Positions 1 through 40,442 of a DNA stretch of 40,442 nucleotides are shown piece after piece. The first letter of the stretch is position 1. Each line of letters begins with the position of its first letter. The notes below the pieces were generated by a model. That model made no database searches and was not told where the DNA came from. It was given only the letters and a program-made list of their open reading frames with translations. Location of the stretch: the IMG/VR virus record IMGVR_UViG_3300044620_001722, positions 1 to 40,442 of that record. The stretch is one strand, 5' to 3'. Position numbers and translations under genes: made by a program. This DNA comes from a virus.

Positions 1-205
1 AAAACCCCAGCGAACGCCCAGCAGACGCCGGGCGACCACGGATTACTGCCAAGGGGGCGTGGGGAGGGTCGGCGAGGCCAAAACCGCCCGGAATAAACCC
101 GGGTATTGTGGGCGGATAACCCCCCGCAGCGCGCACGCGAGAGGGCACGGGCCTGGGGCGTGCATGGGGGTTTTCGGTGCGGTGAATAGAGGCCCGTGGC
201 GGCGT
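1..205. repeat. Left copy of 205-bp terminal direct repeat
   Basis: Bases 1-205 recur at 40238-40442 with one difference (C at 78, T at 40315). Either the contig is a circular genome with an assembly overlap or the virion DNA has short direct terminal repeats. A perfect k-mer overlap would not normally carry a mismatch, which slightly favours a real repeat or population variation. The repeat contains one complete copy of the dispersed palindromic element (82-117). Confidence 0.9.
82..117. promoter_or_regulatory. Palindromic site A
   Basis: Left half-site AACCGCCCGGAATA (82-95), 8-bp spacer (96-103), right half whose reverse complement is ATCCGCCCACAATA (104-117). It lies in the terminal repeat, so it also occurs at 40319-40354, about 490 bp upstream of the first minus-strand gene (start 39828). 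It matches the consensus of the other sites, including the exact 8-bp spacer. Operator or promoter function is inferred. Confidence 0.75.
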
Positions 206-207
206 TT

Positions 208-315
208 GAGGGCCGGGGGTATGCCACGGTATTGACCGGGGGGTGATCGGGCCACCACGGGCCGGGAAATGGCCTCCGCGCCGGTCGGGCTCACGGCGCA
301 CCACCCCCGGACAAC
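208..315. other. Non-coding left-end segment
   Basis: No convincing gene. Together with bases 195-207 it shares two blocks (CGTGGCGGCGTTT at 195-207 and CCACGGGCCGGGAAAT at 255-270) with the region just upstream of palindromic site F (27304-27316 and 27363-27377). The inter-block spacing is nearly the same, 47 versus 46 bp. This suggests an old duplication of a leader or control region. Confidence 0.5.
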
Positions 316-345
316 AAAAAACCCCCCGGGGATGAGCCGGGGGGC
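316..345 (-). terminator. Intrinsic terminator of the left minus-strand gene pair
   Basis: Read on the minus strand, CCCCCCGG and CCGGGGGG form an 8-bp GC stem with a 7-base loop followed by six T residues. It sits 85 bp downstream of the stop of the 430-945 gene, so it would end transcripts from the 1067-1309 / 430-945 pair. Confidence 0.85.
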
Positions 346-360
346 TGTGCGGGTCGGCTC

Positions 361-374
361 AATGAGCCAGAATA
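361..374. promoter_or_regulatory. Orphan half-site of the dispersed palindrome
   Basis: AATGAGCCAGAATA matches half-site D-left (AACCGGCCAGAATA) at 11 of 14 positions. The partner half expected 8 bp further on is absent. It lies between the terminator and the 430-945 gene and is probably a decayed copy. Confidence 0.35.
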
Positions 375-429
375 CCGAAAAGCTCTAACCAAGCTTCCGG
401 TGGGAGGTCGATCGCCTGCGCGGTCATGG

Positions 430-945
430 TCAGAACCCGGCGAGCAAGGCTTCGCCATCGATCCCGCCGTCCTTCGCTTGCGCGGCGCGGATTTCCTCGA
501 TCGCCGCCGCCACCGCCGGCACCTTGCGCACGGCTGCTTGTTGTTCCTTCGTCAGGCCGTCGAGATACGCGCGGATCTCCGCCGGGGTCTTGTCCGCCTT
601 GACCTTGCACAGGGCCTTGAACAGCAGGCCACCGGCGCCGCCACCTTCCCCGGCTTCCCGGGTCTTGTTCCACTGCCCAGCTTGCAGGCGCGTGAACACC
701 TCGATCATCGCGTTGTATTTGTCCTCGATCGTTGCGCTGCGGCCGGTTTCGGGATTCCGGCTCAACGCAGCCGCGTCGCCGATTTTTTGCTTCAACCCAT
801 GCATCATCGCGGCTTCGCGGATTTCGTCCGACAGGGCGGCAGCCTCAACCGTGAGGGTCTCGCCCGTGGCTGTGGTGAACACAAGCCGCGTGCCGGTGAT
901 CTCGGCGGCAATGGCGGGGGTGCGGGGGGTTTCAGTCTTCGACAT
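430..945 (-). CDS. Conserved phage protein, paralogue of the 38250-38813 product
   Basis: The product is 171 aa, starting at the ATG at 945, which has GGAG 8 bases upstream (a longer in-frame extension to 1002 lacks a ribosome site). Function unknown. It aligns over most of its length with the 187-aa product of 38250-38813. Both start M(S/A)KTE, share an IEDK stretch, an ALC plus charged helix, a VPAV motif, and end IDG(E/D)ALLAGF. The Gly-rich GEGGGAGG stretch precedes a predicted helical C-terminal half. No signal peptide or membrane segment. It is the second gene of a minus-strand pair closed by the terminator at 316-345. High copy or structural use is possible, but nothing in the sequence shows it. 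Confidence 0.8.
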   Translation of the reverse strand: MSKTETPRTPAIAAEITGTRLVFTTATGETLTVEAAALSDEIREAAMMHGLKQKIGDAAALSRNPETGRSATIEDKYNAMIEVFTRLQAGQWNKTREAGEGGGAGGLLFKALCKVKADKTPAEIRAYLDGLTKEQQAAVRKVPAVAAAIEEIRAAQAKDGGIDGEALLAGF

Positions 946-1061: not shown

Positions 1062-1066
1062 TGGCC

Positions 1067-1614: not shown

Positions 1615-1650
1615 AACCGCCCGGATTACTCGGCCGTATTGTGGTCGGTT
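1615..1650. promoter_or_regulatory. Palindromic site B
   Basis: Half-sites AACCGCCCGGATTA (1615-1628) and, on the other strand, AACCGACCACAATA (1650-1637), separated by 8 bp. It lies 30 bp upstream of the sigma70-like promoter of the late operon, a position suited to an activator or repressor. The C/T opposition at half-site position 6 would break an RNA stem, so the conserved object is the DNA half-site. Confidence 0.8.
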
Positions 1651-1679
1651 AACCGGGTCGGCTGACCCCGCGCCGGAGC

Positions 1680-6698: not shown

Positions 6699-8690
6699 AT
6701 GCTTATGAAAGACAACGCGGGGACCGTTGAAAACGACGGCCGGGTGGCGGAATGGCTGCGAGAGCTGCACCTGTCCGCCGAGCGTGAGAAAAATTACCGG
6801 AAGGAAGCTGCGGAGGTTCTGAAGATTTACCACGGCAAGCGCCCAGAGCAGGACCAGTTCAACATCCTGTACTCCAATACGGAGACGCTGGCTCCGGCAC
6901 TGTACAACTCCACCCCGCGCCCGACGGTGAAGCGGCGCTTCAACGACGCTGATCCGAAAGCCAAGGCCGCTTCGTCCATCGTTCAGCGGATCTTACAGTA
7001 CCACCTCGATGACGGGCTGGCGGAGTACGCGACCTTCGATTCACTGATCGATTCCGCGGTGCTGCACTCCCTGGTGCCGGCCCGCGGTGTGACTCGCTTT
7101 TGCTACGAAGCGGAGATCGAGAAGCTCGAAGATGGGACGGAGGCCGTCGCTTCGGAGAAGGTCTATGGCAAGTCCGTTGCCTGGGACCACTTCCATCACG
7201 GTTACGGTAAGACCTGGGAAGAAGTGCCCTGGGTCGCTTTCGATCACTTCATGACGAAGGACGAGGTCGAAAAGAACTTCCCGGAAAAGCTGCATCTGCT
7301 CACCCCGAAGCTTCAGCGCCTCGACGAAGAAGACGAGCGGCACATGGACCCACAGCTCAAGGGCCACAAGGTCGTTAAGATCGTTGAGATCTGGGACAAG
7401 GTCACAAAGATGCAGTACTTCCTGTGCCCGGAAGTGCCAGAAGCTTTCTTGCGCGAGCCCGCCCCGGATCCGTACAAGCTATCCGGGTTTTTCCCCTGCC
7501 CGAAGCCGCTCATGCTGTTCAACAGCATTGGGAGTTGCGAGGCGATCCCGCTGTACCGGCTCTACAAGGCGCAGGCGGAAGAGCTCAACGTCGTCACCGT
7601 GCGTATTCAGCGCATCACCAAAGCCTTGAAGGTCCGCGGTTTCTTTGATGCGTCCGTGCAGGGCATCGAGAAGCTCATGGATGCCGACGACAACACGCTG
7701 CTGCCGATGGAAAATGCGGCGGCGCTGTACGGTTCCGGTACTGGTGGCGGTCTCGACAAGGCGATCCTGCTCCTCCCGATCGAGAAGCTCGTCTCCGTGC
7801 TGCAGCAGCTCTACACGCAGCGGGATCAGGTCAAGCGCACGATCTACGAGATCACCGGCATTGCTGACATCATGCGGGGTGTGAGCCAAGCCAGCGAAAC
7901 CCTGGGCGCCCAGGAACTCAAGAACCAATGGGGCACCCTGCGTCTCAAGCGTTTCCAGCGTCGCACGGCTCTGTATGTCCGGAATTGCCTGCGGATGCTG
8001 GCGGAGCTCTCGGTGGAGAACCTCTCCCAGCCGCTGATCGCCTCGATCACGGGCCTGCAGTTCCCGACGGCCGAGGAAAAGGCGCAAGCGCAGGTGCTGA
8101 TCCAGGCCATTCAGCTGCAGGGCGGTCAACCCGACCCGATGACGGTGCAGATCCTGCAGCAGCCGTCTTGGGAAGAGCTCTTGGAGCTGCTGAAAAGCGA
8201 CCTCCAGCGTTCCTACCGCATCGATATCGAGACGAATTCCACACTGGATGCCGAGGCCACGGAAGACAAGCAGGACATTCAAGAGCTGTTGACCGGGCTG
8301 TCGCAGTTCTTCGCGGCTGTCAGCCCGATGGTGGAGAGCGGTACGCTGCCGTTCGACGTTGCCAAGGGCATGCTCGTTGCCATTACTCGTCGGTATCGCC
8401 TGGGCCCGGAGTTCGAGGACGAACTGAACAAAATGCAACCGCCGCAACCACCGGCTGACCCTGCGGCGGAGCTCAAAAAGCTCGAACTGCAGGCCAAGCA
8501 AGCTGAAATGGAGCACGACAAGGAGATGCGCGCTCTGGACATGCAGCTCAAGCGTGAAGAGTTCGCGCTGAAGCAGGCCGATATGCAGCAAAAAGGCGAG
8601 CTGGCCAAGCAAAAGCACGTCATGGACCTGCAAAAGCTTGTGCTCACCGCCCAAGTGCAGTCGCAAAAGCCGGATTCCGACGCGGATTAA
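6699..8690 (+). CDS. Portal protein
   Basis: 663 aa from the ATG at 6699, chosen because GGGGGA lies 6 bases upstream (GTG at 6681 and ATG at 6705 are alternatives). Features of large podovirus portals: a helical N-terminus (ERNEKNYRKEA-like), NILYSNTETLAPALYNSTPRP around residues 52-73, a long stem region, and a C-terminal Gln/Lys-rich coiled coil (about 590-655). Forms the dodecameric DNA channel at one capsid vertex and binds TerL and the adaptor. The stop codon abuts palindromic site C. Identification is by overall pattern and position between TerL and scaffold. Confidence 0.9.
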   Translation: MLMKDNAGTVENDGRVAEWLRELHLSAEREKNYRKEAAEVLKIYHGKRPEQDQFNILYSNTETLAPALYNSTPRPTVKRRFNDADPKAKAASSIVQRILQYHLDDGLAEYATFDSLIDSAVLHSLVPARGVTRFCYEAEIEKLEDGTEAVASEKVYGKSVAWDHFHHGYGKTWEEVPWVAFDHFMTKDEVEKNFPEKLHLLTPKLQRLDEEDERHMDPQLKGHKVVKIVEIWDKVTKMQYFLCPEVPEAFLREPAPDPYKLSGFFPCPKPLMLFNSIGSCEAIPLYRLYKAQAEELNVVTVRIQRITKALKVRGFFDASVQGIEKLMDADDNTLLPMENAAALYGSGTGGGLDKAILLLPIEKLVSVLQQLYTQRDQVKRTIYEITGIADIMRGVSQASETLGAQELKNQWGTLRLKRFQRRTALYVRNCLRMLAELSVENLSQPLIASITGLQFPTAEEKAQAQVLIQAIQLQGGQPDPMTVQILQQPSWEELLELLKSDLQRSYRIDIETNSTLDAEATEDKQDIQELLTGLSQFFAAVSPMVESGTLPFDVAKGMLVAITRRYRLGPEFEDELNKMQPPQPPADPAAELKKLELQAKQAEMEHDKEMRALDMQLKREEFALKQADMQQKGELAKQKHVMDLQKLVLTAQVQSQKPDSDAD

Positions 8691-8725
8691 ACCGCCCAGA
8701 ATACAGGAGAATAATTCATGCCGAT
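8690..8725. promoter_or_regulatory. Palindromic site C (left half intact)
   Basis: Half-site AACCGCCCAGAATA (8690-8703) begins on the last base of the portal stop codon. The 8-bp spacer (8704-8711) carries the AGGAG ribosome site of the next gene, and the right half (8712-8725) overlaps its ATG and is degenerate. On the plus strand AATAAT falls 17 bp after TTAAAC, a weak sigma70-like pair. Confidence 0.6.
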
Positions 8726-10211: not shown

Positions 10212-11183
10212 ATGCCCTCTCCCAATCAGGTTTTCACCGAGCTGGTGACGACCACCTTCCGCAAGCACCGCAAGGACCTGAAGGACAACTTGTCGAAGCA
10301 CAACGCGCTGCTGCGCCGGCTGACCGACAAGGGCCAGATCCGCCACGAAGACGGCGGCCTGTCCATCGTCTGCGGCCTCGATTACGCTGCCAACGGTACC
10401 TACCAGCGCTACAGCGGCTACGATGTGTTGAACATCGGCGCCAGCGACGTGCTGAGCGCGGCCGAGTACCAATGGCGTCAGATCGCAATCAGCGTGACCG
10501 CCAGCGGCCTCGAACTGCGCACCAACTCGGGCGGCAGCCGCATCATCAACCTGGCCAAGGCTCGCATGAAAAACGCCATGCGCACCTTCAAGAACAACTT
10601 CTCCGCTGACCTGTACAGCGACGGCACGCTGTCGAACCAGATCGACGGTCTGCAGAAGTTGGTCGCCGACAACGGCCTGGGCACCGTTGGTGGCATCGAC
10701 TCCAACACCTGGGCCTTCTGGCGCAACAAGGTGCAGTCGGCCGCTGCCCCGCTGCAAGGTGGCGCCGCCGTCACGATCTCGAAGGACACCATCGAGAACC
10801 AGTGGCTGCATCTGTGGCTGGCCCTGTCGCGCGGTGATGACACCCCCGACCTGATCGTCACCTCCAACGACCGCTTCGCGTTCTACGAAGCCAGCCAGGT
10901 CTCGCTCAAGCGCTACACCGGCGACTCGACGGCCAAGGGCGGCTTCCAGGCCTTGAAGTACAAGACCGCGGACGTGATCTTCGACGGCGGCTCTGGCATC
11001 CCCGACGCCCACTCGTACTTCCTCAACACCGACTACCTGGAGCTGGTGGCCCACACCGACGCCGACATGGAAGTCATGGAAGAGATGAAGCCGATCAACC
11101 AAGACGCGGCCGTCATCCCCATCCTCTGGATGGGCAACACGACTTGCAGCAACCGTTCGCTGCAAGGCGTCGAGAAGGCCTGA
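10212..11183 (+). CDS. Major capsid protein
   Basis: 323 aa, ATG with AGGAG upstream. Composition and motif pattern fit an HK97-fold podovirus coat: an N-terminal arm (FRKHRKDLKDNL), GLDYAANGTYQRYSGYDVLNI, an NLAKARMKNAMRTFKNNFSADLY-type spine helix region, DLIVTSNDRFAFYEASQ, and a C-terminal region with DADMEVM and ILWMGN. Codons are strongly biased to C/G at third positions compared with neighbours, as expected of the most expressed protein. It follows the scaffold and is followed by palindromic site D. Confidence 0.93.
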   Translation: MPSPNQVFTELVTTTFRKHRKDLKDNLSKHNALLRRLTDKGQIRHEDGGLSIVCGLDYAANGTYQRYSGYDVLNIGASDVLSAAEYQWRQIAISVTASGLELRTNSGGSRIINLAKARMKNAMRTFKNNFSADLYSDGTLSNQIDGLQKLVADNGLGTVGGIDSNTWAFWRNKVQSAAAPLQGGAAVTISKDTIENQWLHLWLALSRGDDTPDLIVTSNDRFAFYEASQVSLKRYTGDSTAKGGFQALKYKTADVIFDGGSGIPDAHSYFLNTDYLELVAHTDADMEVMEEMKPINQDAAVIPILWMGNTTCSNRSLQGVEKA

Positions 11184-11187
11184 TGAA

Positions 11188-11223
11188 AACCGGCCAGAAT
11201 ACTCCCCCGTAATCTGGCCGGTT
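11188..11223. promoter_or_regulatory. Palindromic site D
   Basis: The most symmetric copy: AACCGGCCAGAATA (11188-11201), 8-bp spacer, and AACCGGCCAGATTA on the opposite strand (11223-11210), 13 of 14 identical. It sits 4 bp after the capsid stop and 28 bp before the next ATG. As RNA it could also fold into a long hairpin, but there is no T run after it. On the plus strand CGTAAT lies 17 bp after GAAAAC, a poor sigma70 match. Confidence 0.8.
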
Positions 11224-15799: not shown

Positions 15800-17103
15800 G
15801 CACTGCTCCTTTCACCGATTTCGCCGCACAGGCAGCCGCTCTCGAGCGCAAGCGCGCGCTGGCTCAAGCCATGCTGCAGCAAGGCATGACGCCGCAGCAA
15901 GGTTCAATGGTCGGTGGCCACTACATCCGGCGCGGCCCGCTTGGCGCCCTGGGACAAGTCGCGCAGATGGCCGGCGGTCACTTCATGGGCCAGCAGGCTG
16001 AGGCCGGGCAAGCCGCGCTCGCCAAGGACTACCAAAGCGGGCTGGCGCAGGGACTGGAGAAGTATCTCCAAACCCGCGAGGGTGCGCCTGGCCAAACCAT
16101 GAACGATCAGCAGGCGGCTGACTTGATGATGAACGATCAAGCGCCGACGCTGGCCGAGCCGGTCAAAGCCGATCCTCGCCGTGCCGTGATCGAAGCCATG
16201 ACAAGCCAATTCCCGGAGCTGCAAAAGGTCGGGCAGCTGGAACTCGGCGCCATGCTGAAGCCGAAGGGCCGCGATCCGTCGATGATCAGGGAGGCTGGCG
16301 GCCGTTTCTACGACTTGTCCAGCGGGCAGCCTGTCGAAATCGGCGGGAATGAATTCGGCGGGATCGAAGTCATCAATGGTGACACCTACCAGCGCGGACC
16401 TGGCGGCAAGCTGATCAAGCTGGACAATGCCACGAAGGTCAGCACCGTGGTGAATAACAACCCGACGCAGGCGGGGCTCAAGAAGTACCAGGAAGCTGTG
16501 GGCGAAAGCCTTGCCCCCGGGGGCAAGTCGCGCGTGGCTGCGGAGCAAGCTCAGGAAGGCCTCACCGCTTCTGTCGAAGCTCTGCAGGCTGTCAACGACG
16601 GCGCACGCATGGGCATCGCGCAGCCGGCCATGCAGGTTGTTCGCAAGCTCGGCGCGGAGCTGGGCATTGCCAACGCTGAGACGGCTCCGACCGATGCCTT
16701 GTCCGCTGCGCTGAAGCAGTCGGTGTTCAAGGACCTCGGAGGCCTTGGTGCGCAGATCTCTGACGCAGACCGCAAGTTCGTGACGGAGTTCTCGGGCGAT
16801 CTGACCACTGACACCGGCGCGCTGAAACGCATGCTGGCAATTCGCATTGCCGCACAGATCAAAAAGGTCAACGCTCACAACAAGAACGTCGCCGCTTTCG
16901 GGCGCACCGCCGAAGACCCGAACTTCGAAGGCCTTGCCGGGATGCCCCTCAGCATCCAGATCCCTGATGATGAGGTCGCCGCGATGGTGGACAACGTGCT
17001 GCAGGGCAAGCCCACGACAGCCGGGATGGCGAAGCCTCCGAGCAAAACCGGCAAGGTCATGACCGCTGAAGAATGGCTCCGCTCTCGGAAAGGTGGCCAA
17101 TAA
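15796..17103 (+). CDS. Internal virion (ejection) protein
   Basis: 435 aa, GTG start overlapping the previous stop (GTGA). Gln/Ala/Gly-rich, predicted mainly helical, with MLQQGMTPQQG and HYIRRGPLGALGQVAQMAGG near the N-terminus, a form common in podovirus ejection proteins that enter the host envelope with the DNA. No catalytic motif. The stop overlaps the next ATG by one base (TAATG). Confidence 0.7.
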   Translation: MSTAPFTDFAAQAAALERKRALAQAMLQQGMTPQQGSMVGGHYIRRGPLGALGQVAQMAGGHFMGQQAEAGQAALAKDYQSGLAQGLEKYLQTREGAPGQTMNDQQAADLMMNDQAPTLAEPVKADPRRAVIEAMTSQFPELQKVGQLELGAMLKPKGRDPSMIREAGGRFYDLSSGQPVEIGGNEFGGIEVINGDTYQRGPGGKLIKLDNATKVSTVVNNNPTQAGLKKYQEAVGESLAPGGKSRVAAEQAQEGLTASVEALQAVNDGARMGIAQPAMQVVRKLGAELGIANAETAPTDALSAALKQSVFKDLGGLGAQISDADRKFVTEFSGDLTTDTGALKRMLAIRIAAQIKKVNAHNKNVAAFGRTAEDPNFEGLAGMPLSIQIPDDEVAAMVDNVLQGKPTTAGMAKPPSKTGKVMTAEEWLRSRKGGQ

Positions 17104-19127: not shown

Positions 19128-19138
19128 TCCGGTCGGAG
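19103..19138. promoter_or_regulatory. Palindromic site E
   Basis: AACCGACCAGAATA (19103-19116), 8-bp spacer, opposite-strand half CTCCGACCGGATTA (19138-19125). It supplies the final codons and the stop (19125-19127) of the large ejection protein and ends 7 bp before the next ATG. AATAAT lies 17 bp after GAAAAC on the plus strand: good -10, poor -35. Confidence 0.8.
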
Positions 19139-19145: not shown

Positions 19146-19961
19146 ATGCCTTTCAACGGTGCAGGCGTCTACAGTCCCCCCAGTCCCCCCGTGTTCCCCG
19201 TCGTGACGGCGGAGCTGATCAAGGCGGCCGATTTCAACACGACGATCAGTGACATTGCGGCGGCTCTCACCAACTGCGTCACGAAGGACAACCAGTCGAC
19301 GACGCCGGCGTTGACTGTCGGTACGCTGACAGCGACCACGGCTGCAAACTTGCCGGCAAATGCTACGGTGGGCGGTCAGCCGGCTCTGACTCGTCGCTAT
19401 ACCACGGGCGAAGTGATTCTGTCGATCTCGTCGACTGCCCCAACGGGTACTGTCGCGATGAATGGCACGACCATCGGATCAGCCATTTCCGGCGCAACCG
19501 GGCGAGCCAACAGTGACACGCAGGCGCTCTTCGAGCTGATCTGGACTTCGAGCGACAACACACTGTCTCCGATTCAAGATGCCAGCGGTGCGCCCACAAC
19601 GCGCGGAGCTTCCGCAGCCGCGGACTTCGCCGCAAACAAGCGCATGCCTGTGCCGGCGCCGCAAGATGGCGATGCGCTGCTGATGGCGATTTCCAGCTCC
19701 GTGATTTCTCGGTCCGCTGGGGAAGTGCTGAGCCATACGCACACAGCGACTGCCGCAAATTCTGGCATCCATAATCATGGAGTTCCTTCGGGGTCCTCAG
19801 AAGGTGATGACCCTAATACCTGCACAAACGGCGGCGGGCGCAACGGAACCGTGTCTTCCGATGCTGCAGGGGAGCACTCTCACACCATCACCGTCGACGC
19901 TTTCGGCGGTACGAAGAACAAAGCCGCCGGCCTGTTCCTCAAGCCTTACATCGCGCTTTGA
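19146..19961 (+). CDS. Tail fibre tip protein with His-rich receptor-binding end
   Basis: 271 aa, GGAG 8 bases before ATG. N-terminal AELIKAADFNTTISDIAAAL is a virion-attachment-like helix. The C-terminal third has HTHTATAANSGIHNHG, GEHSHTITVDAFGG and ends GLFLKPYIAL, the His-pair collar motif seen in T4 gp37/lambda Stf-type fibre tips, where HxH pairs bind metal along the trimer axis. It probably acts as a second receptor-binding protein besides the esterase fibre at 4684-6657. Confidence 0.75.
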   Translation: MPFNGAGVYSPPSPPVFPVVTAELIKAADFNTTISDIAAALTNCVTKDNQSTTPALTVGTLTATTAANLPANATVGGQPALTRRYTTGEVILSISSTAPTGTVAMNGTTIGSAISGATGRANSDTQALFELIWTSSDNTLSPIQDASGAPTTRGASAAADFAANKRMPVPAPQDGDALLMAISSSVISRSAGEVLSHTHTATAANSGIHNHGVPSGSSEGDDPNTCTNGGGRNGTVSSDAAGEHSHTITVDAFGGTKNKAAGLFLKPYIAL

Positions 19962-22881: not shown

Positions 22882-22908
22882 ATAAGTGTCTCCGAATTGT
22901 GGTCAATC
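22873..22908. promoter_or_regulatory. Degenerate palindromic site L
   Basis: One half (22895-22908, AATTGTGGTCAATC) matches the right half of site B at 10 of 14. The partner half overlaps the ATG of the 22881 gene and is decayed, as in site C. The 8-bp spacer contains the GGAG ribosome site of that gene. Minus-strand TTGACC is followed 16 bp later by TATATG. Confidence 0.5.
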
Positions 22909-25275
22909 GCACTCGCCCCAGGAAACCCGGGAGGTCTTGCAGCCAACAGGTATAACAAGAGGGTCGTCGTAGGGCAAGGGAATTTCTGCCAATTCGATGA
23001 CTCGGCGAGTTAGTTCGGCTTCTCGCCGCGTTGGGAATTGCCCGGCAAGCGAGTCATGGACCTGTAGCAGTATCTCAATTTCAGGTTCCTGCCGGTCAAT
23101 CTCCATGTAAGCTCGATTGATGAGGCAGCCCACGGTCGATTGGGGAATCCAAGCAATCGCGACGTTGAAAATTGTCCCTTCGATTCGTTCGAGGAAATAG
23201 CGACGATAGCCGAAAATGTTTTCAACCATTCGGCGCTTGACGACCTGATCCTTGACGTCATCTTGCCAACGGCGGATTTCCGGAAACTTACCGAAGTACC
23301 ATGCCTGCGTCTTCTCTGCTTCGTGGACAAGCAGACCAAGCCGCTCGGCAAGCCCCTTAGCCGAACCGAGGTAGTTTGTCCCGTGACAGAAGGCTTTGAA
23401 CAGCTGTCGGCGCGGGTCCTTTTTAGTGAGCGTTGGGTCATGGTAGAATTCCTTAGCGACTTCGGTGTAGGGGTCTAGGCCTTCGCGTAGCATGGCTTTC
23501 AGCTCGCTGGCCCCGGACTCCCAAACCACAATTCGTAGGTCAGCTGAACCGAGGTCGATATCGAAGAAGGTCCGGCCTGGGTCTGGGATAAACATGCTTC
23601 GAATGTTTGGCAGCGAAAGCCTGTCCCCGTCTTCCCCCTTCGGAATATTCTGAAGGTTGAGCCCTGTCCCGAAAGCGTTGGTTGAGGAACTGAACCGATA
23701 TGTGTCGGTTCCAGGGATGCTAAAACTGCTTCGCATTCTGCCATCAACATCACAAGAGCTGTTGATGAAGGTAGAGAGGAAAACACCAAGCGACCGGAGG
23801 TCTTGAATTTTCTCAATGAGGGGTCGTAGCGCAGGTTCGCGAGCAGCAATGCGCAAAAGCGCTTCATCGTCCGTTGAAGGCGTTCGTGTCTTTCGTCCCA
23901 GAACCACGGGCTGGCCCAGTTTGAGGTAGAAGAGCTCGCACATCTGGGCTGGCGAGCGTATGTTGATGGACTCGCCGAGTACGTCTTCGATCCAGGCTTG
24001 CCGGTCTTCGATTTGAGCCTGGACTGCTTTGCGGAATTCCGATCGTGTCGCTTCATTGATGCGCACCCCTCGTTGCATGGTCTTGAGAACGGGCCACCAC
24101 AAGGCTTGCTGGAAGTCGTGTGGGCCGCGCACTCCGATCATGTCGACAACGCGCTGCTCTTCGTCGTCGACCTCATAAGTGATCACTGCGTCTTTGCAGT
24201 TGTAGCCCCAATACTGGTCTTCCGGAATCGACGGGTTCCATTCTTTGCCTTCGTCTTTCCAGTACTCGTGGAAACCGCAGTACATCGAAGAGAGGAAATC
24301 GAGGCCCTTCTGCATCGTGGAGAAGCAGGAATGCTGCGCGATCATGGTGTCGCGAGTCAAGCGCGGGACGAAACCCCAGAATCTGTCAATGTACTGCGCG
24401 TCGTAGTGGAAATTCTGGCCGATGACGACAGCGTTGCGGTGTGTCAGCAATCGCCAGAGTCGGTAGACGATTTCAGCTTCTTCGTCCTCGGCCCAATAGC
24501 CTTCCACCCGCTCCGTGCACATCAACGGAATGCAGATCGCTTCGAGCTTCGACCACGCCAGCCCGATACACGCGATGTTGTAAGCACGGGTTTCAATGTC
24601 CACGCTGAGCTTCGTTGGCTCGGCTTCAACGAGGCGCTGAAGCAGGTCCAAGTAGTGCAGAACGGTGGCGTAATCCGGCCGAATTACGAAGGAATATTCT
24701 GGGCGTTTAAACCCCCCGGCGCGGAGGATCGAAACTGCGCGCTTGAGGTCCTGCACCACCACACCGCGCTTTTCCCATGCCGCGTTGACGAACCCCGGCG
24801 GAAGCGTCGGCACGACGGCCGGCTGGTAATCCAGACCCGTGGCCAGATCAGCGCTGAGCATCGAACCACGCCAGGAGGTAACGCCCCACTGGCCGGTAAG
24901 CATCCACATCGCGGCGTTGCCCAGGGCAATGATGACGGTCGGGCGGACTTGCTCGATCTCCCGGGCCAGCATCTGCATGTGATCGCAGACCAGGGGCAGA
25001 ACGTGCTTGTCACGGGTGATCGTGTGCGCTGGGGTGATGTCCTTCTTCTTCGTCGCGATCAGCGATTCGATCTCGCCACGCGGGGGGCGGATCTTCAGCG
25101 CGGACGTAATGTAGCACTGAGAACGCAAGATCCCGGCGTCCTTGAGCATGTCGTTGAAGGTCGAGCCGTTGCCGTCCGACAGGGCGACGCCGGCGCGGAA
25201 ATCCCCCTCGGAAGGGAACTCAGCGACGATCATGATGCGGGCCGGCGCTGGGCCGGAAGGGCGAATGAGGCTCAT
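22903..25275 (-). CDS. UDG-like domain fused to family A DNA polymerase
   Basis: 790 aa; ATG overlaps the previous stop by one base (TAATG). Residues 13-165 resemble a family 4/5 uracil-DNA glycosylase: IMIVAEFPSEGD, ITSALKIRPPRG (57-67), RPTVIIALGNAAMWMLTG (111-128), but the His-Pro of the second active-site motif is replaced (PTLPPG, 156-161) and the usual four Fe-S cysteines are lacking. The 3'-5' exonuclease has VDIETR (D226, E228), GQNFHYDAQY and YNCKDA (D362). Polymerase: TYRFSS...LNLQNIP (525-545), motif A DIDLGSADLR (572-581), motif B RRQLFKAFCHGTNYLG (K627, Y635), motif C QVHDS (H740, D741). The replicative polymerase. The domain linker (residues 190-201) coincides with palindromic site N. 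Confidence 0.92.
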   Translation of the reverse strand: MSLIRPSGPAPARIMIVAEFPSEGDFRAGVALSDGNGSTFNDMLKDAGILRSQCYITSALKIRPPRGEIESLIATKKKDITPAHTITRDKHVLPLVCDHMQMLAREIEQVRPTVIIALGNAAMWMLTGQWGVTSWRGSMLSADLATGLDYQPAVVPTLPPGFVNAAWEKRGVVVQDLKRAVSILRAGGFKRPEYSFVIRPDYATVLHYLDLLQRLVEAEPTKLSVDIETRAYNIACIGLAWSKLEAICIPLMCTERVEGYWAEDEEAEIVYRLWRLLTHRNAVVIGQNFHYDAQYIDRFWGFVPRLTRDTMIAQHSCFSTMQKGLDFLSSMYCGFHEYWKDEGKEWNPSIPEDQYWGYNCKDAVITYEVDDEEQRVVDMIGVRGPHDFQQALWWPVLKTMQRGVRINEATRSEFRKAVQAQIEDRQAWIEDVLGESINIRSPAQMCELFYLKLGQPVVLGRKTRTPSTDDEALLRIAAREPALRPLIEKIQDLRSLGVFLSTFINSSCDVDGRMRSSFSIPGTDTYRFSSSTNAFGTGLNLQNIPKGEDGDRLSLPNIRSMFIPDPGRTFFDIDLGSADLRIVVWESGASELKAMLREGLDPYTEVAKEFYHDPTLTKKDPRRQLFKAFCHGTNYLGSAKGLAERLGLLVHEAEKTQAWYFGKFPEIRRWQDDVKDQVVKRRMVENIFGYRRYFLERIEGTIFNVAIAWIPQSTVGCLINRAYMEIDRQEPEIEILLQVHDSLAGQFPTRREAELTRRVIELAEIPLPYDDPLVIPVGCKTSRVSWGECD
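24673..24708. promoter_or_regulatory. Palindromic site N, inside the polymerase gene
   Basis: ATCCGGCCGAATTA (24673-24686), exact 8-bp spacer, opposite-strand half AAACGCCCAGAATA (24708-24695). It encodes residues 190-201 of the polymerase, the linker between the UDG-like and exonuclease domains. On the minus strand TTTAAA is followed 17 bp later by CGTAAT, so a weak internal promoter is possible. Confidence 0.75.
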
Positions 25276-25824: not shown

Positions 25825-27234
25825 TCAGATCATGGCCGGCTCTTCGCCGATTTTGATATCCTTCGCACGGCGGAGGCACAGACCGTAGTATTCGGGATTC
25901 AGCTCGGTGACGGTCGCTGCGCACTTGAAGCTGTGCGCCGCCGGGATCAGCGTGCCCGTGCCGCCGAAGGCGTCGAAGACACGGTCGCCGGGCTTGACGC
26001 TGCGCTGCAGCAGGTTTTGGTACAGCGCAACCGGCTTCTGCGCACCGTGCGACGTGTTCTTGTCGCCTTCGACCGAGATCACATCAGGGTAGATGTGCGT
26101 GACCGGCTTGTTGCCCTTGATCGCGTAGAGGATGATTTCGTACTGACGACGCGGGCCACGATCGGGCAAGGGCACGCGGCCGCTGTTGAGCTTGTGCACG
26201 ATCAGCGGGGTGCGGAAGACGTACCAGCCAGCAGCGAGCATGAATTCCTTGAGCTTGTGGAAGTTGTCGAAATCACAGAAGACGTAGGCGTGAGCTTCGG
26301 GCTTGGCCACGGCGAAGGACAGCGGAGCCCAATTGCGCATGAGGCTGAGCCAGCTCTCATAGCTGTCGTCATAATGGTGCTCCACGCCCGTGAGCTTGCC
26401 GCCAGCATCGCCGAAGGAATCAGCACCCATACCATACGGCGGGTCAGTCAAGATCACATCGAACTTTTTGTCCGCCGGGCCGTCAGCCACGCTGCGCATG
26501 AACTCCAGGCAATCGATGTTGAGGATGCTGTGAGCGTCAGCCGTGAACGTGGCGCCGATCACGCGGGCCAGCTCGACGTTGCGGCCAGCTTCTTCCTGCT
26601 TTTTCAGGATCTTGAACGCCTCATCGACTGACTTGGCTTTGGCCACAGCCGGGTTGTCGAGGTGCTTGGCCACGATCAGCTCTTTGCGGACCTTGTCGCG
26701 GTAGTTGCCATCGTCGCGGCCGTGGATTTCCAGCGCGGTGTCGTTGATCGTGTGGGCCGGGGTGGCTGGCTGCTCGGCGTCTGGCAAAGCCGCAACGGCC
26801 TTGGCGCGCTTGGCTTCAGCCTGCATCATGCGCAGCTCATGGAGCTTCTTCGTCGCGTCGGCACTTTCCTGCCACGTCAGATCTTTCCGGCGGATGTTCT
26901 CGTCCAGCTCGGCTTCGAAAGCGTCGATTTCCGACAGCTCGCCAAGGTCGGTGTACGGGATGACGCCGGCATCAGCTGTGTAGAGCTTACCGTTGTAGCG
27001 GAACTCGCCGCCCAGGGCGAAGATATCACCAATGACCTTGAGACGGGTTTCGCCCGCCACCAGTACCATGGCTTCACCTTCCCGCCGCAGCACCGGCGCG
27101 TGCATGAGCTGGGCATTCGGCCGGTCCTTGCTGGTCTCGATCGACGCCTGCATTTCCAGCATTTTGGTGGGGTCGAACTCGCGTCGCTGGCGATTGGGCT
27201 TGATGACGACGGCGGACAAAGCGATATCGGGCAT
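25825..27234 (-). CDS. ParB-like domain fused to DNA adenine/cytosine-N4 methyltransferase
   Basis: 469 aa from ATG 27234 (GGAG upstream; the longer frame to 27432 would run through site F). The N-terminal ~125 residues are ParB/sulfiredoxin-like: a VVIKPNRQRREFDPTKM start, HAPVLRREGEAMVLVAGETRLKV (46-67) and DLTWQESADATKKLHEL. The helical linker is followed by a beta-class amino-methyltransferase: TDPPYGMG (263-270, motif IV), then GDRVFDAFGGTGTLIPA (416-432, SAM-binding motif I). Methylates N6-A or N4-C in DNA. The ParB part may give sequence recognition or be a nuclease. It could protect phage DNA or mark control sites. Confidence 0.88.
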   Translation of the reverse strand: MPDIALSAVVIKPNRQRREFDPTKMLEMQASIETSKDRPNAQLMHAPVLRREGEAMVLVAGETRLKVIGDIFALGGEFRYNGKLYTADAGVIPYTDLGELSEIDAFEAELDENIRRKDLTWQESADATKKLHELRMMQAEAKRAKAVAALPDAEQPATPAHTINDTALEIHGRDDGNYRDKVRKELIVAKHLDNPAVAKAKSVDEAFKILKKQEEAGRNVELARVIGATFTADAHSILNIDCLEFMRSVADGPADKKFDVILTDPPYGMGADSFGDAGGKLTGVEHHYDDSYESWLSLMRNWAPLSFAVAKPEAHAYVFCDFDNFHKLKEFMLAAGWYVFRTPLIVHKLNSGRVPLPDRGPRRQYEIILYAIKGNKPVTHIYPDVISVEGDKNTSHGAQKPVALYQNLLQRSVKPGDRVFDAFGGTGTLIPAAHSFKCAATVTELNPEYYGLCLRRAKDIKIGEEPAMI

Positions 27235-27485
27235 TTTCGGGGCTCCATGGTGGCCGTGGGTGGCCGGGATTGGGGAGAGGCGCACGGCGGGGGTGGATCG
27301 GGCCGTGGCGGCGTTTTTGCCGTGGGGTGGGGGGTGGATATGGTCCGGGGTCGAAAATCGCGCCACGGGCCGGAAATAAAACCGCCCGAAATACGGCGGA
27401 TTATTCTGGTCGGTCAATCCCGCCACCCACAAGCGAAAGCGCCCCGTATAAGTCCGGGGCCACGACTGTCAGCGATCGGCGAGGA
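27235..27485. promoter_or_regulatory. Control region upstream of the methyltransferase gene
   Basis: 251 bp without a gene. Contains palindromic site F and, between it and the ATG, a leader of about 145 bp that shares blocks with the left end of the genome (195-207, 255-270). The minus-strand TTGACC (27417-27412) is a good -35; the -10 choices (GTATTT at 17 bp, TATTTC at 18 bp) are weak. Confidence 0.55.
27380..27415. promoter_or_regulatory. Palindromic site F
   Basis: AACCGCCCGAAATA (27380-27393), 8-bp spacer, opposite-strand half GACCGACCAGAATA (27415-27402). Lies about 150 bp upstream of the ParB-methyltransferase start. The minus-strand flank completes TTGACC, pointing the possible promoter at that gene. 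Confidence 0.8.
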
Positions 27486-32361: not shown

Positions 32362-32397
32362 TACCGCCCGAATTATGCCGGATTATTCCGGGCGGTT
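32362..32397. promoter_or_regulatory. Palindromic site G
   Basis: TACCGCCCGAATTA (32362-32375), 8-bp spacer, opposite-strand half AACCGCCCGGAATA (32397-32384). Lies between the helicase stop and the next minus-strand start (32330). Confidence 0.8.
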
Positions 32398-34502: not shown

Positions 34503-34678
34503 GGTGTGTCCTTGGTGGGGTGGGTGGCGGGCAGCGTCGGCAGAGTGGCAGCGGCCCAAACCATCCCAGCCTTGATGTGCTCGGGGTAGGCGTCGATTCG
34601 GTCGGCCGCCTCCTTGACCTTCGCGGCGAACCATTCGCGGCTGTGCTTGCGCGGGGCGGGCTTCGGTGCTTTCGCCAT
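34499..34678 (-). CDS. Small hypothetical protein (59 aa)
   Basis: 59 aa from ATG 34678 (a GTG at 34681 is an alternative; GGAGGGGGG lies upstream). Basic start (MAKAPKPAPRKHSREW), helix (AAKVKEAADRIDAY) and hydrophobic segment around MVWAAATLPTLP. Overlaps its neighbours by one and four bases, so it is part of a coupled series. Confidence 0.55.
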   Translation of the reverse strand: MAKAPKPAPRKHSREWFAAKVKEAADRIDAYPEHIKAGMVWAAATLPTLPATHPTKDTP

Positions 34679-35325
34679 CACTTCCCCCCTCCCGCCTGGG
34701 CGGACATGGCGGCGTCAAAGCCGGGGTGCCTGAACTCAACCCCGCACTTCTTGCACTTCTCAAGCCCTGGCGCAACGTAGTCACGCGGGCAACGAGACTT
34801 TGCATGGCCGGTGTCCACCCACTCCCCCGTGAAGGGGTGTTCGTAGCCAGTCGGCTCCCACTGCTGCTTGGGGCATTCCCACTTGGCATGCTCGTGGCCC
34901 AGAGCCAAAGGTTTACCGGTTGCGTCGTAGTAGCCCCAGGTTGCCCGCACCACCCCCGCATCCAGCGCAGGGGCCGGGGCTTGAGGGGCGGCGTCAGACC
35001 AATCCAATCGCGCCGGCTCGCTCCCAGCGTCTGCAACCCATCCGCTGGTTGTCGCTTGCTGTGCGGGCTTGAGCGTGATGACGACCTCCAAACCAAGGTG
35101 TGCGGCCAGCTTCGTCAGATGTCGCAACTCGACGCGGCACCTGCCTGACTCGTAGTTGGTCACGCTGGTGCGCTCCACGCCAAGCACGGCGGCAACCTCG
35201 GCCTGAGTCATGCGCGCAGCTTGGCGCATGTTGAACATGGTCGCTGCGAGCTGGTCAGCGTCTGGATCGGGCAGCTTCGCTTTCGAGACGGGCTTGATGT
35301 CGTCGGTGTTCAGTTCGATCTTCAT
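34678..35325 (-). CDS. XRE-type HTH regulator with C-terminal zinc-binding region
   Basis: 215 aa from ATG 35325, ATGA overlap with the upstream gene. Residues about 25-85 form an XRE/Cro-type helix-turn-helix: MFNMRQAARMTQAEVAAVLGVERTSVTNYESG, of which the recognition helix is around VERTSVTNYESG. After a Pro/Ala linker the C-terminal third holds CPKQQ..., RCPRD and CKKCG cysteines that could bind zinc. The only clear sequence-specific DNA-binding regulator in the window, and a candidate reader of the dispersed palindromes. It could alternatively act as the antitoxin-like or Cro-like regulator of its own operon. Confidence 0.78.
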   Translation of the reverse strand: MKIELNTDDIKPVSKAKLPDPDADQLAATMFNMRQAARMTQAEVAAVLGVERTSVTNYESGRCRVELRHLTKLAAHLGLEVVITLKPAQQATTSGWVADAGSEPARLDWSDAAPQAPAPALDAGVVRATWGYYDATGKPLALGHEHAKWECPKQQWEPTGYEHPFTGEWVDTGHAKSRCPRDYVAPGLEKCKKCGVEFRHPGFDAAMSAQAGGGK

Positions 35326-36760: not shown

Positions 36761-36878
36761 GGATGAATCCCCAGGAAAGGGTGTTGGCTTCGAAGTGATA
36801 CTGCATCGCGCCCGGCACGCAGTGCCAAGCGAAGTGCGTGTGCCGAATGGTGGCGATGATTTCGGCTGCGTCAGGCAT
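36753..36878 (-). CDS. Short protein (41 aa), translationally coupled
   Basis: 41 aa; its ATG lies 8 bp inside the upstream gene and its stop 8 bp inside the next, a pattern seen all along this operon. Reads MPDAAEIIATIRHTHFAWHC then VPGAMQYHFEANTLSWGFIHV. A clear open frame with His/Trp-rich composition; too short for domain calls. The size is below usual ORF cut-offs, but the arrangement supports it. Confidence 0.5.
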   Translation of the reverse strand: MPDAAEIIATIRHTHFAWHCVPGAMQYHFEANTLSWGFIHV

Positions 36879-37206
36879 AATGCTTCTTCATCGTTTTGAA
36901 GGGTTCGAGATCATAGCCCAGAGCTTCCAGCTCGGCCACCAGGAGCTTGTCGGCTTCGCTGTGCCCGCCTTCGTGATCGCCGGCGGCGTGCATCTTGCAC
37001 AACATGAGCTGCACTGTCAAGTCCTCCCGGCGCTTCACCGCCGCGAAGTGCTGCGCAATGAGCCCCTCCACAAAGGCTGCCCAGGCGCCGTACGGCACAC
37101 GGCCTTCAAGCTCGCTGAACAGCTCCAGGTCAACGCGATCGACGACATCGCTGGACATGGTGATTTTCTTGTCGATCCGGGGGATCGCGGACTTCGGTCG
37201 GGCCAT
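36871..37206 (-). CDS. Ribbon-helix-helix-like small DNA-binding protein (putative)
   Basis: 111 aa; start overlaps the previous stop by one base (TAATG). Basic N-terminus MARPKSAIPRIDKKITMSSDVVDRVDL then FSELEGRVPYGAWAAFVEGLIAQHFA resembles an RHH (Arc/MetJ type) fold: short beta strand with KKITM, then helices. C-terminal half acidic, helical. If true it is a second potential operator-binding protein after the XRE regulator. Confidence 0.55.
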   Translation of the reverse strand: MARPKSAIPRIDKKITMSSDVVDRVDLELFSELEGRVPYGAWAAFVEGLIAQHFAAVKRREDLTVQLMLCKMHAAGDHEGGHSEADKLLVAELEALGYDLEPFKTMKKHYA

Positions 37207-37951: not shown

Positions 37952-37987
37952 AACCGCCCATATTATCGCCGATTAATTCGGTCGGTT
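37952..37987. promoter_or_regulatory. Palindromic site H
   Basis: AACCGCCCATATTA (37952-37965), 8-bp spacer, opposite-strand half AACCGACCGAATTA (37987-37974). Stands 69 bp upstream of the 37883 start. Confidence 0.8.
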
Positions 37988-38249: not shown

Positions 38250-38813
38250 TCAGAAGCCTGCGAGCAGGGCGTCGCCGTCGATCTGCGGACGCTTGCTGGC
38301 CTTCTCGGCTTCCAGGCGCACGATGATCTCCTTGACGGCGGGCACTTCGCGCAGGGCGAGCTTCTCGGCGTGGGACTTGCCGTCGAGGAATTCCTTGACC
38401 TCGGCGACCGACTTGCCGCGCAGTTCGCACAGGGCGCGGATCAGCACGCTGGCGCCGGCCATGCCCGAGCCTTCGCGGCGGACGTTGAACTCGCCGGCGT
38501 TCAGGCGGTCGATCAGCGCGTCGATGGTCAGGACCTTGTCTTCGATGCTGGCTTCCTGGCCGGTCGAGGGGTCCTTGAGGCCGGCGATCTCGTCACCGAG
38601 CTTCTGCTCCGCGCCGTGGGCGGCGAATTGCAGCAGCAGCGCGCCCGGGACGGTGAACAGGCGGGTCTCGCCGTTGCGGAAGTCCAGGCGGACTTCGACC
38701 TTGCCGTCGGCCGTGATGGTCGAGGACTTCTGCAGCTGGCGCTTGCCGGGGAAGTCGACGATGCGCTCGTCGTCCATCTTGACGGTTTCGACTTGGGGTT
38801 CGGTTTTGGCCAT
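38250..38813 (-). CDS. Conserved phage protein, paralogue of the 430-945 product
   Basis: 187 aa from ATG 38813 (GAAAGG upstream). The N-terminal half has a beta-strand pattern (KVEVRLDFRNGETRLFTVPG), the C-terminal half helices with IEDKVLTIDALIDRL, ALCELRGKSVAEVKEFLDG and LREVPAVKEIIVRLEAEKA, ending PQIDGDALLAGF. It shares the C-terminal half and end with the 171-aa product at 430-945; the N-terminal halves differ more. Codon use is strongly biased to G/C, suggesting high expression. It has its own promoter and terminator-like hairpin, so it is a monocistronic unit. Function unknown. Confidence 0.85.
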   Translation of the reverse strand: MAKTEPQVETVKMDDERIVDFPGKRQLQKSSTITADGKVEVRLDFRNGETRLFTVPGALLLQFAAHGAEQKLGDEIAGLKDPSTGQEASIEDKVLTIDALIDRLNAGEFNVRREGSGMAGASVLIRALCELRGKSVAEVKEFLDGKSHAEKLALREVPAVKEIIVRLEAEKASKRPQIDGDALLAGF

Positions 38814-38914
38814 GATTGGGCCCTTTCGTGGATGATGTTGGCAGGCAGTTGAGTGGCCGATTAGCGACGGGTTGGGGTGCTTGCCGGTATGCCCCGCCCC
38901 GTCTCGGTACACCG

Positions 38915-38943
38915 ACGTTAGCCCGGTCCGGCGGGTCTGTCAA
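38915..38943 (-). promoter_or_regulatory. Sigma70-like promoter of the 38813 gene
   Basis: Minus-strand perfect -35 TTGACA (38943-38938), 17-bp spacer, -10 TAACGT (38920-38915, 3/6). A leader of about 95 nt precedes the ATG at 38813. The -35 overlaps the stop of the 38940-39281 gene. Confidence 0.55.
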
Positions 38944-39281
38944 CCCCCGCTGATGGCTTTTTTCACAAGTTCGATCTCGTGCGCTCGCGGGGGGTGGGCG
39001 GACAGCGAGAAGACCACGCAGTCTAGCTCGCTGCGGCGATGTGTTTTGAGAGCCCAGCCCGCCGCGAGCTTTTGACTCACGTCGGGTGCAACGCCGGGCC
39101 AGCGCTTAAACGCCCCGAGAAATGCGCGGAGCTTGCGCTGTTGCGTCTCGGCTTCACTTCGGCTCCGCCCTGGCAGAGCTACGATCCAGACGCGGAAGCC
39201 GGGCTGGCTGAAAGCCTCTCGCGCGCAGGCAATCCAATGCGCTGGGTAGGAATCAAGGGGATGGATTTTGCTGCTCGGCAT
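38940..39281 (-). CDS. Hypothetical protein (113 aa)
   Basis: 113 aa from ATG 39281 (weak GGGGGCC upstream; the longer frame is a shadow). Contains FRVWIVALPGRSRSEAETQQRKLRAFLGAFKRWPG and ALKTHRRSELDCVVFSLSAHP: alpha/beta with a basic face, typical of small phage proteins with a possible nucleic-acid role. 13 bp after the upstream stop. Confidence 0.6.
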   Translation of the reverse strand: MPSSKIHPLDSYPAHWIACAREAFSQPGFRVWIVALPGRSRSEAETQQRKLRAFLGAFKRWPGVAPDVSQKLAAGWALKTHRRSELDCVVFSLSAHPPRAHEIELVKKAISGG

Positions 39282-39294
39282 GGCTGGCCCCCGA

Positions 39295-39828
39295 TCAGTG
39301 CGATTCGCCGGGTTTTTCCCCGCGAGTGAAGAAGGGATTGGCGGTCGGGCTGGCCGAGCTGGGGAAGCTGTCGCGCTCTTCCAGCGGATCGATCGTGCGT
39401 GACTCGAAGGCGAACGCATCCGCGATGAGCCCCTCTCGCTGGCTCGCTCGCGCTTCGCCGGCTGCGGCCAGTGCATTGACGCGGGCCAGGGAGTCGGCCA
39501 CGGCCAGGTCTTCCGCGGTCACGGCAGCGTCGATGCTGACCCCGGCGTCGGCGAGCGCCGCAGACACCAGATCGACGACGCACTTCCGTGTCAAGCTCAC
39601 GCTCGGTGGATCGATGGTGACGCCGACTTTGAGCACGCCGAGGGCTTCGGCTAGCGCCGGGTCGGGCTGGGCTTTGCCGTCGCGAAATGGCTTCACCGCG
39701 TTGTAGAGCCTGAAGCGAAGATTCCGCGCGGTGGCGACGTCCGGGCAGGCGATGGTTAGGCCATCCGGGCGGGTGGCCGCTGTCCGCCATGCGGTTTGCA
39801 GGGTTGCGATTTCAGCTTTCGTTGTCAT
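39295..39828 (-). CDS. Hypothetical protein (177 aa), first gene of the minus block
   Basis: 177 aa, ATG 39828 without a clear Shine-Dalgarno. Residues 1-60 (LTIACPDVATARNLRFRLYNAVKPFRDG) give an alpha/beta basic segment of a type I have seen in phage early proteins; the middle (VGVTIDPPSVSLTRKCVVDLVSAALADAG) is beta/alpha; the tail is polar. No named family. Likely early, being first after the right-end control region. Confidence 0.6.
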   Translation of the reverse strand: MTTKAEIATLQTAWRTAATRPDGLTIACPDVATARNLRFRLYNAVKPFRDGKAQPDPALAEALGVLKVGVTIDPPSVSLTRKCVVDLVSAALADAGVSIDAAVTAEDLAVADSLARVNALAAAGEARASQREGLIADAFAFESRTIDPLEERDSFPSSASPTANPFFTRGEKPGESH

Positions 39829-40237
39829 GATGCTTGCGGGCTGAGCCCGGGTTTGCGGGTGGATAAAAGGCGCGTGGGCGCTGGTGCAGGTGCGTGCGCA
39901 CGCGAGCGGGCTTGACCAATAGCGGCTGGCCGCCGCGACCGGGCTGGGTTAAGCGGGCGAACCGTCCCCATCTCCCACCGATATTGGCCCGATCCACGCC
40001 CGCTTGCAAGCCATCCGCCGGAAGTATTGCGGGAGTATGCCGGGATTTTCATGAGCATCTGGCCGAGGTAAATGGCGTTGGGGGTGATTCCCGGTCCCCC
40101 GGGCCTATCCTCCTTCGTACGAGTTCTTAAAATGTCAAAAAAAAATACTGCCACAAAACGCCTCAAACACACGAAGGGATACGGCGGGGGGACCGGGAAT
40201 TTCAGCCAATCCGGCTTACAGCCATCGTTTTTCCACT
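39829..40237. promoter_or_regulatory. Right-end non-coding region
   Basis: 409 bp without a convincing gene (a minus-strand open frame here is low-complexity and lacks a good start). Contains a degenerate palindromic copy (40013-40049), a minus-strand TTGACA preceded by a T tract within an AT-rich stretch (about 40120-40160) without a good -10 at 17 bp, and an isolated AAGGAGG (minus) at about 40108-40114 with no start codon in range. Confidence 0.5.
40013..40049. promoter_or_regulatory. Degenerate palindromic site M
   Basis: ATCCGCCGGAAGTA (40013-40026) matches the half-site consensus at 10 of 14; the opposite half (TATGCCGGGATTTT, 40036-40049) also at 10 of 14 but with a 9-bp spacer. It lies about 190 bp upstream of the 39828 start. 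Probably a decayed or weak member of the family. Confidence 0.4.
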
Positions 40238-40442
40238 AAAACCCCAGCGAACGCCCAGCAGACGCCGGGCGACCACGGATTACTGCCAAGGGGGCGTGGG
40301 GAGGGTCGGCGAGGTCAAAACCGCCCGGAATAAACCCGGGTATTGTGGGCGGATAACCCCCCGCAGCGCGCACGCGAGAGGGCACGGGCCTGGGGCGTGC
40401 ATGGGGGTTTTCGGTGCGGTGAATAGAGGCCCGTGGCGGCGT
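40238..40442. repeat. Right copy of 205-bp terminal direct repeat
   Basis: Identical to 1-205 except for T at 40315 in place of C. It begins just after an AT-richer stretch and includes the second copy of palindromic site A (40319-40354). If the unit is circular this is the same locus as the left end. Confidence 0.9.
40319..40354. promoter_or_regulatory. Palindromic site A, second copy in the right terminal repeat
   Basis: Same sequence as 82-117. In this copy the element stands upstream of the minus-strand operon beginning at 39828. Confidence 0.75.

Follow-up and report, generated by a model that had tools for sequence, protein, structure and literature searches.

A 36-bp palindromic element recurs along a 40,442-nt virus genome, the IMG/VR record IMGVR_UViG_3300044620_001722 (the whole of which is called the window here), and along each of seven related genomes, where its geometry and several of its places are kept and its half-sites are spelled differently. 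By computation, both the element and its re-spelled layout across the clade are firmly established. The sequence comparisons also suggest a reader: the elements are probably recognised by a small ribbon–helix–helix (RHH)-like protein encoded at 36871–37206, one of the candidates proposed in the initial annotation of the window. On balance, we favour the explanation that the element is the operator of an autoregulatory RHH transcription regulator.

The window contains nine distinct sites, all at the places first annotated and all with 8 bp between the two halves (Table 1). A tenth place, 40319–40354, is site 82–117 counted twice, because the ends of the record repeat 205 bp (1–205 and 40238–40442, one base different, just left of the site); for the same reason the genome is put at ∼40.2 kb. 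The repeat is perhaps an assembly overlap. In a half-site matrix scan with the gap set to 8, the ten places scored 33.9–43.9 bits, values flattered in absolute terms by training of the matrix on the same sites, and the next best place in the window scored 0.0. The best paired score among 100 third-order Markov resamples was 4.8. An exact pattern matched 8 of the 10 places in the record and none when it was reversed, and a control with a mis-spaced pattern gave 0/14. The half-sites in the window are spelled AACCGNCCRGAWTA, and all nine spacers differ. Three weaker copies that had been proposed did not hold up: the pair at 40013 scores −11.0, 22873 does not rank among the best 25 pairs, and at 361 there is a single weak half (4.5 bits).

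Relatives were gathered via their portal, polymerase and helix–turn–helix (HTH) genes, together with the GenBank phage MW202489; the exact pattern scan of IMG/VR gave seven contigs, all similar to the window, one stretch (L009) weakly. The eight records (window and seven relatives) are 38.7–43.3 kb long and, because of this length, were taken as complete or nearly so. A dyad search in the relatives, which demanded a TA at each inner edge and no fewer than 11 of 14 pairs, returned gap 8 for all matches except four. With iterated matrices, all eight genomes proved to share the 14-8-14 geometry and its TA-N8-TA core, at 7–13 copies each. The distinct sites number 9 in the window, 8 in MW202489, 13 in G005, 7 in G012, 8 in G017, 8 in G018 and 7 in G020; G016 has nine sites, of which two are identical, and is counted as 8. 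The half-sites of MW202489 are of the CCGCCGGGTTTA type, those of others are ATCCGACCGNATTA, ACACGGCCGCATTA, ATCCGCGCGGATTA and more, and AATTGTGTGGGTTA is common to G016 and G017. In the more distant phage Pam5 we found one isolated dyad, no set of sites and no RHH gene. Two departures from the usual geometry were also seen. Two similar dyads with a 9-bp spacer lie at 7826 and 5336 of L012 (relative G008) and may be a spacer variant or chance. At L121, where the RHH protein is diverged, the palindromes form a set whose register is shifted, AAATCTCCGGGGAT with gap 12, at 3495, 5754, 9389 and 12168.

The positions of the sites relative to genes were compared using genes picked by conservation. 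All eight genomes have a site directly behind the capsid gene, within the polymerase gene, ahead of the HTH/TerS-like gene and at the counterpart of the 19103 border (recognised in G018 from one neighbouring gene only); in six, a site lies 24–29 bp behind the helicase frame. Taken over all genomes, 27 of 69 site copies are within 60 bp of the stop of a conserved gene, compared with 9.7% of random places. At the site within the polymerase gene, the encoded peptide tracks the half-site type: it is RPDY or RPEY in the five genomes with CCG-type or CGGCCGG-type halves, and CVDY in G016, G017 and G018, where the half is TGTGTGG-like. In the window, the earlier description of all sites but one as intergenic proved too strong. 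Six lie between accepted genes, a count that ignores small unsupported frames such as 43–294 over site 82, but three touch genes: 24673 is within the polymerase gene, 19103 covers the last 25 bases of 17073–19127, and 8690 covers the ATG at 8718, this overlap being the reason for its degenerate right half, which had been noticed from the start. Similarly, some sites fit the starts of gene clusters, as claimed, but others stand behind the capsid or helicase genes or within the polymerase gene.

Table 1. Elements in the window and the gene of their proposed reader
Feature	Position	Strand	Remarks
Site 1, operator-like element	82–117		identical copy at 40319–40354 in terminal repeat
Terminal-repeat copy of site 1	40319–40354		duplicate
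Element upstream of late operon (HTH/TerS-like gene 1748–2302)	1615–1650		site before that gene in 8/8 genomes
Element between portal gene and next gene	8690–8725		right half overlaps start codon 8718, degenerate
Element directly behind major capsid gene (10212–11183)	11188–11223		place kept in 8/8 genomes
Element at 3′ end of gene 17073–19127, before 19146–19961	19103–19138		matching border occupied in 8/8 genomes
Element within DNA polymerase gene (22903–25275, minus strand)	24673–24708		place kept in 8/8 genomes
Element upstream of ParB-like/methyltransferase gene	27380–27415		
Element on promoter-like match TTGAAC-17-CATAAT (32400–32372)	32362–32397	−	24 bp behind Dda-like helicase frame
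Element on promoter-like match TTGAAC-17-GATAAT (37990–37962)	37952–37987	−	upstream of gene group holding RHH gene
RHH-like protein (111 residues), proposed reader of elements	36871–37206	−	residues 12, 14 and 16 are D, K and T

The conserved unit is longer than the 14-bp half-sites first proposed, although the 14-8-14 geometry itself stands. Across 66 oriented sites from the eight genomes, T,A at −2,−1 and T,T at +36,+37 are also conserved, and the element with these outer bases is two-fold symmetric and spans 36–40 bp. As a result of the outer conservation, each half becomes a quasi-palindrome, TAAT-N8-ATTA. The half-site is quasi-palindromic about position 6.5, with a match of 0.48, the other centres tried giving 0.14–0.33. 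The centres of the two half-sites are 24 bp apart, which is ∼2.3 turns of the helix, about two having been suggested. NikR/Arc-type operators take two RHH dimers on half-sites about two turns apart, with alternating strand residues reading the bases; what differs here is the 24-bp spacing and the distribution of the operator set across a whole lytic-looking phage genome.

Within a phage, the left and right halves of a site are no more complementary than after random re-pairing (z = −1.9; 219 sites, 40 phages). The halves of a DNA site would vary independently in this way, whereas the arms of an RNA hairpin would not, and the result argues for a protein that contacts two symmetric half-sites, as was originally supposed. 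One alternative considered was a transcribed hairpin acting as a terminator or as a processing or stability element. The transcript of an element would fold to a long stem capped by an 8-nt loop, and copies directly behind genes are several, for example behind the capsid gene. However, the arms are not compensated, it is the identity of the half-site rather than its pairing that is conserved, and 27380 was the only element listed by a terminator scan, so that we reject the hairpin as very improbable. Still less probable is a set of lox/dif/FRT-like sites for site-specific recombination, with inverted arms around an 8-bp spacer. The arm and spacer sizes of loxP and FRT are close to those of the element, but the nine window spacers are all different and neither the tyrosine nor the serine recombinase family (PF00589, PF00239) has a match in any of the eight genomes; recombination sites were rejected on these grounds. 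The centromere of a ParA-type partition system was likewise rejected, PF13614, the sole ATPase family tested, also being found in 0/8 genomes.

The RHH-like protein and the element travel together. A relative of the protein, 31–42% identical to that of the window, is present in all seven other genomes. A profile of the eight proteins matched 88 loci, of which 80 were kept with the protein match as the sole selection; these 80 include near-identical phages. At least two same-motif sites (gap 8, TA edges) were present in 52 of the 80 loci and at least three in 38. For controls we varied the gap and the edge dinucleotide and shuffled the sequence. With gaps of 5, 6, 7, 9, 10, 11 or 12, at least three sites were found in 0–1 of 80 loci, with eight other inner dinucleotides in 0–3 of 80, and in five rounds of shuffling in 0/400, two sites occurring in 1/400. 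Without the TA rule, 29 of 80 loci had at least three sites at gap 8, compared with one each at gaps 7 and 9 and 0/80 after shuffling. Reversed sequence without the TA edge was rejected as a control because a reversed palindrome is itself a palindrome. Where the locus is at least 16 kb long, at least three sites are present in 24 of 31 cases. At L031 13575–13778, the RHH gene of G001, as read, contains one in-frame TGA.

The assignment of the protein to the RHH fold comes from profile comparison. Alignment by hhalign of 43 family members with 16 RHH_1-type proteins (15 of them above the Pfam cut-off) gave a probability of 79% and a score of 27.4 over 48 columns, whereas eight column-shuffled controls and one reversed control scored at most 11.9. 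The alignment places a six-residue insertion between the helices of the RHH-like protein, and by the RHH_1 register residues 12, 14 and 16 occupy the positions that contact the DNA side in RHH proteins. AlphaFold2 monomer models (predicted local distance difference test, pLDDT, 91.0 and 90.6) agree with the profile comparison in the order of the helices: residues 1–18 are non-helical, and helices are predicted at 19–29 and from 39 or 41 onwards. The N-terminal strand of the RHH fold would form its pairing in a dimer only.

RHH proteins take their DNA specificity from alternating strand residues, and residues of the protein were compared with the spelling of the half-sites. We used the 40 of 82 phages with at least three sites (the other 42, with too few, were dropped), which reduce to 29 non-redundant phages at 85% RHH identity. 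Among these 29, motif similarity rises from 0.575 to 0.628 and 0.731 when none, one or both of residues 12 and 14 are in common. This pair is ranked first of 55 i,i+2 pairs, and residue 12 is the best single column (p = 2e-4, uncorrected); residues 11, 13 and 15 together carry no signal with motif similarity. The trend is seen at low overall identity too, with a motif similarity of 0.674 for the 7 pairs having both residues in common versus 0.586 for the 92 pairs having neither. Position 4 of the half-site is C in 14/14 phages with an acidic residue 12 versus 10/15 others (p = 0.04). The link between residues 12 and 14 and the spelling is nevertheless suggestive and not proof, because nothing is significant after family-wise correction.

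A number of observations weigh against the RHH protein as the reader. No Pfam family scores above threshold, one member of the family matching RHH_5 at E = 0.11; a PHROG search gave no convincing match; and there was no RHH structure among the Foldseek matches listed. In a fold search the best row for the long RHH model was PcfF, with a Z of 4.1 and an unusable Foldseek E of 1.9, the short model found nothing, and the sequence gave only rows of E = 1.3 against solved structures. Fewer than two sites are present in 28 of the 80 RHH loci (16 of these 28 are shorter than 12 kb), and the RHH gene is not contained in 10 of 11 clade fragments searched (4.7–25.5 kb), several of which have sites. In 37 of 38 loci the RHH gene has a site no more than ∼2.3 kb upstream, but the density of sites is higher 3–5 kb upstream of the gene than adjoining it, so there is no enrichment near the gene. 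Family-wise correction leaves residue 12 as the best column, at p = 0.15 (30 phages); on 17 phages the protein gives p = 0.59 with a best column of r 0.32. A high rank also goes to residue 44 of the second helix (p = 0.001, uncorrected).

Other conserved proteins have also to be considered. Co-travel alone is no proof of RHH binding, since the clade shares the methyltransferase and two further proteins as well. The ParB-like/methyltransferase protein (25825–27234) is present in 8/8 genomes and in 14/14 further genomes, the HTH/TerS-like protein in 12 of those 14 and the family of the 38250 paralogue in 13. The reader could then be one of these, above all the methyltransferase through its ParB-like N-terminal part (a weak match, E = 3.4e-4), with the RHH protein as a fellow traveller. 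The column statistics fail to separate the four proteins: the best column has r 0.55 for the methyltransferase, 0.51 for the 38253 paralogue and 0.57 for the HTH protein, in each case numerically higher than for the RHH protein but not significant (p 0.84, 0.63 and 0.31, respectively), this comparison being limited to 15–17 phages and without power for the rivals. Against the methyltransferase, it is 47–70% identical to that of the window in phages with widely different half-sites, the RHH protein being the more variable of the two, and in the 29-phage set it is RHH residues that supply the best pair and the best column. We therefore keep the methyltransferase, which had been among the first candidates, as a rival reader, but an unlikely one. 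The XRE gene (34678–35325), a third early candidate, was dropped, no homologue being found in the eight-genome comparison among the matches listed. The paralogous proteins of ∼190–220 residues at 430–1002 and 38250–38912 (both minus strand) have no Pfam match, and their relatives are found in all seven other genomes.

Overlap with promoter-like sequences suggests what the RHH protein might do at the elements. A generic scan of two 20-kb stretches of the window gave six sigma-70-like matches, a count not above chance expectation. Two of the six are exactly on elements 32362 and 37952, and a third, TTGACA-17-CACAAT at 1680–1708, starts 29 bp after element 1615. A TTG at the −35 place is found in 14 of 438 half-sites (40 phages), two of them in the window; the 14 come from eight phages, of which L073 and L074 are close relatives. 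Every one of the 14 is accompanied by a −10 match of at least 5/6 at 17 bp, versus 153 of 424 other half-sites (Fisher p = 1e-6). In the oriented sites, the TTG was on the upstream side in 9 and on the downstream side in 0. At the TTG sites the putative operator thus spans the predicted promoter core, which is the layout of a repressor, and the location of the RHH gene in the same-strand group behind the 37952 promoter fits autoregulation. The TTG is missing in 57 of the 66 oriented sites, and a repressor reading covers some sites only.

The mechanism we propose for the RHH operator is as follows. Each 16-bp quasi-palindromic half would take one RHH dimer, the paired β-strands of which may read the middle 6–8 bp through residues 12 and 14, and basic arms at the N-terminus may extend to the A/T edges of the half-site. 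One complex would then be two dimers 24 bp apart, with the 8-bp spacer between the halves. At the early sites 32362 and 37952, the predicted −35 is at the outer edge of one half and the predicted −10 is made up of the spacer end and the TAAT of the other half. The bound regulator would exclude RNA polymerase and turn off the early genes, including its own group; we consider repression of the early promoters somewhat the likelier outcome. For sites lacking a −35, such as those behind the capsid gene and within the polymerase gene, our best guess, weakly supported, is that the complex would act as a stoperator-like roadblock or tuning point for elongating polymerase, although we think this rather less likely than not to apply.

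The clade phages are probably lytic, as no integrase was found in the eight genomes. When 84,980 species genomes of bacteria and archaea were scanned for exact matches to a conserved pattern of 10 residues, the RHH-like protein was found in a single contig. This contig of 45 kb, in a Saccharibacteria bin, also carries the methyltransferase and four elements spelled ATCTGTATAAATTA or similarly; of the 99 genomes of the class to which the bin belongs, only the bin itself has the protein. These results bear on a reading in which the sites are immunity operators, the RHH protein silencing a prophage and conferring homotypic immunity as mycobacteriophage repressors do. Phage-specific spelling at conserved places does resemble the diversification of immunity groups, as covered in the available passages of PMC6550527. 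However, PF00589, PF00239 and PF13614 were matched in none of the eight genomes, and the protein occurs in that sole contig of the species genomes, together with the methyltransferase. Prophage immunity is accordingly disfavoured and we judge it improbable.

The likeness in concept to stoperators drawn in the initial annotation is borne out. According to the sections available of PMC6550527 and PMC9283540, cluster A mycobacteriophages such as L5 and Bxb1 have many sites per genome, some being operators at promoters and most lying elsewhere, and the consensus of each lineage is matched to its own repressor. Many genome-wide copies and a phage-specific consensus are both seen in the present clade. 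Stoperators, as described in the parts available of PMC6550527, are 13-bp and asymmetric, mostly in one orientation to transcription, with up to 30 per genome, whereas the elements here are 36–40 bp and symmetric, with 7–13 copies. The same parts describe repressors with a helix–turn–helix domain in temperate phages, in contrast to an RHH-type candidate and no integrase found here. The element works like the sites of a multi-operator phage regulator, in part like stoperators, without the asymmetry which defines them.

Two further systems are comparable in part. SvtR and AvtR, two small RHH proteins encoded by archaeal viruses, each bind several places in the genome of their own virus; the gene of SvtR is among those it represses, and AvtR has eight potential sites, conserved within the genus (PMC5569661, from the passages available). 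Our candidate would similarly be a small virus-encoded RHH protein with several sites in its own genome. The SvtR and AvtR systems differ in having archaeal promoters and hosts and other motifs, and the passages available of PMC5569661 mention neither a rigid 14-8-14 geometry nor respelling from virus to virus. In the Bacillus phage SPbeta, the SPBRE element occurs in about ten promoter regions and is bound by the master repressor MrpR (PMC10516654, in the portion available), which gives a repeated element in a phage genome with one reader, as is proposed here. The same portion describes SPBRE as a 15-bp motif whose repressor has a tyrosine-recombinase-like fold, in a prophage, unlike the window element. 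Among the matches listed from the open-licence PubMed Central literature, the extracts available hold no description of the element or the protein family.

The analysis connects a protein family, one that found no model in Pfam or PHROG, to its probable target, and offers a map of regulation for a large clade of uncultivated phages. The ∼29 natural pairs of protein and half-site are a source for learning the RHH recognition code. It also raises the question of why operators at fixed places, even within the DNA polymerase gene, should be respelled in phages with no detectable integrases. One speculative answer, which we regard as unlikely on present evidence, is that a lytic clade has one rigid operator architecture with a fast-changing protein–DNA code, the RHH protein of the phage that enters first silencing the early promoters of incoming phages of the same spelling, in an immunity-like superinfection exclusion without prophages. 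Such silencing, if true, would put pressure on the spelling to diversify.

The other genes recognised in the window are those for the terminase, portal, capsid, DNA polymerase, primase, Dda-like helicase, a Sak4-like protein and the ParB-like/methyltransferase. In MW202489, a 180-base frame at 39992–40171 (L019) is labelled a class D beta-lactamase in GenBank, a label that is doubtful at that length.

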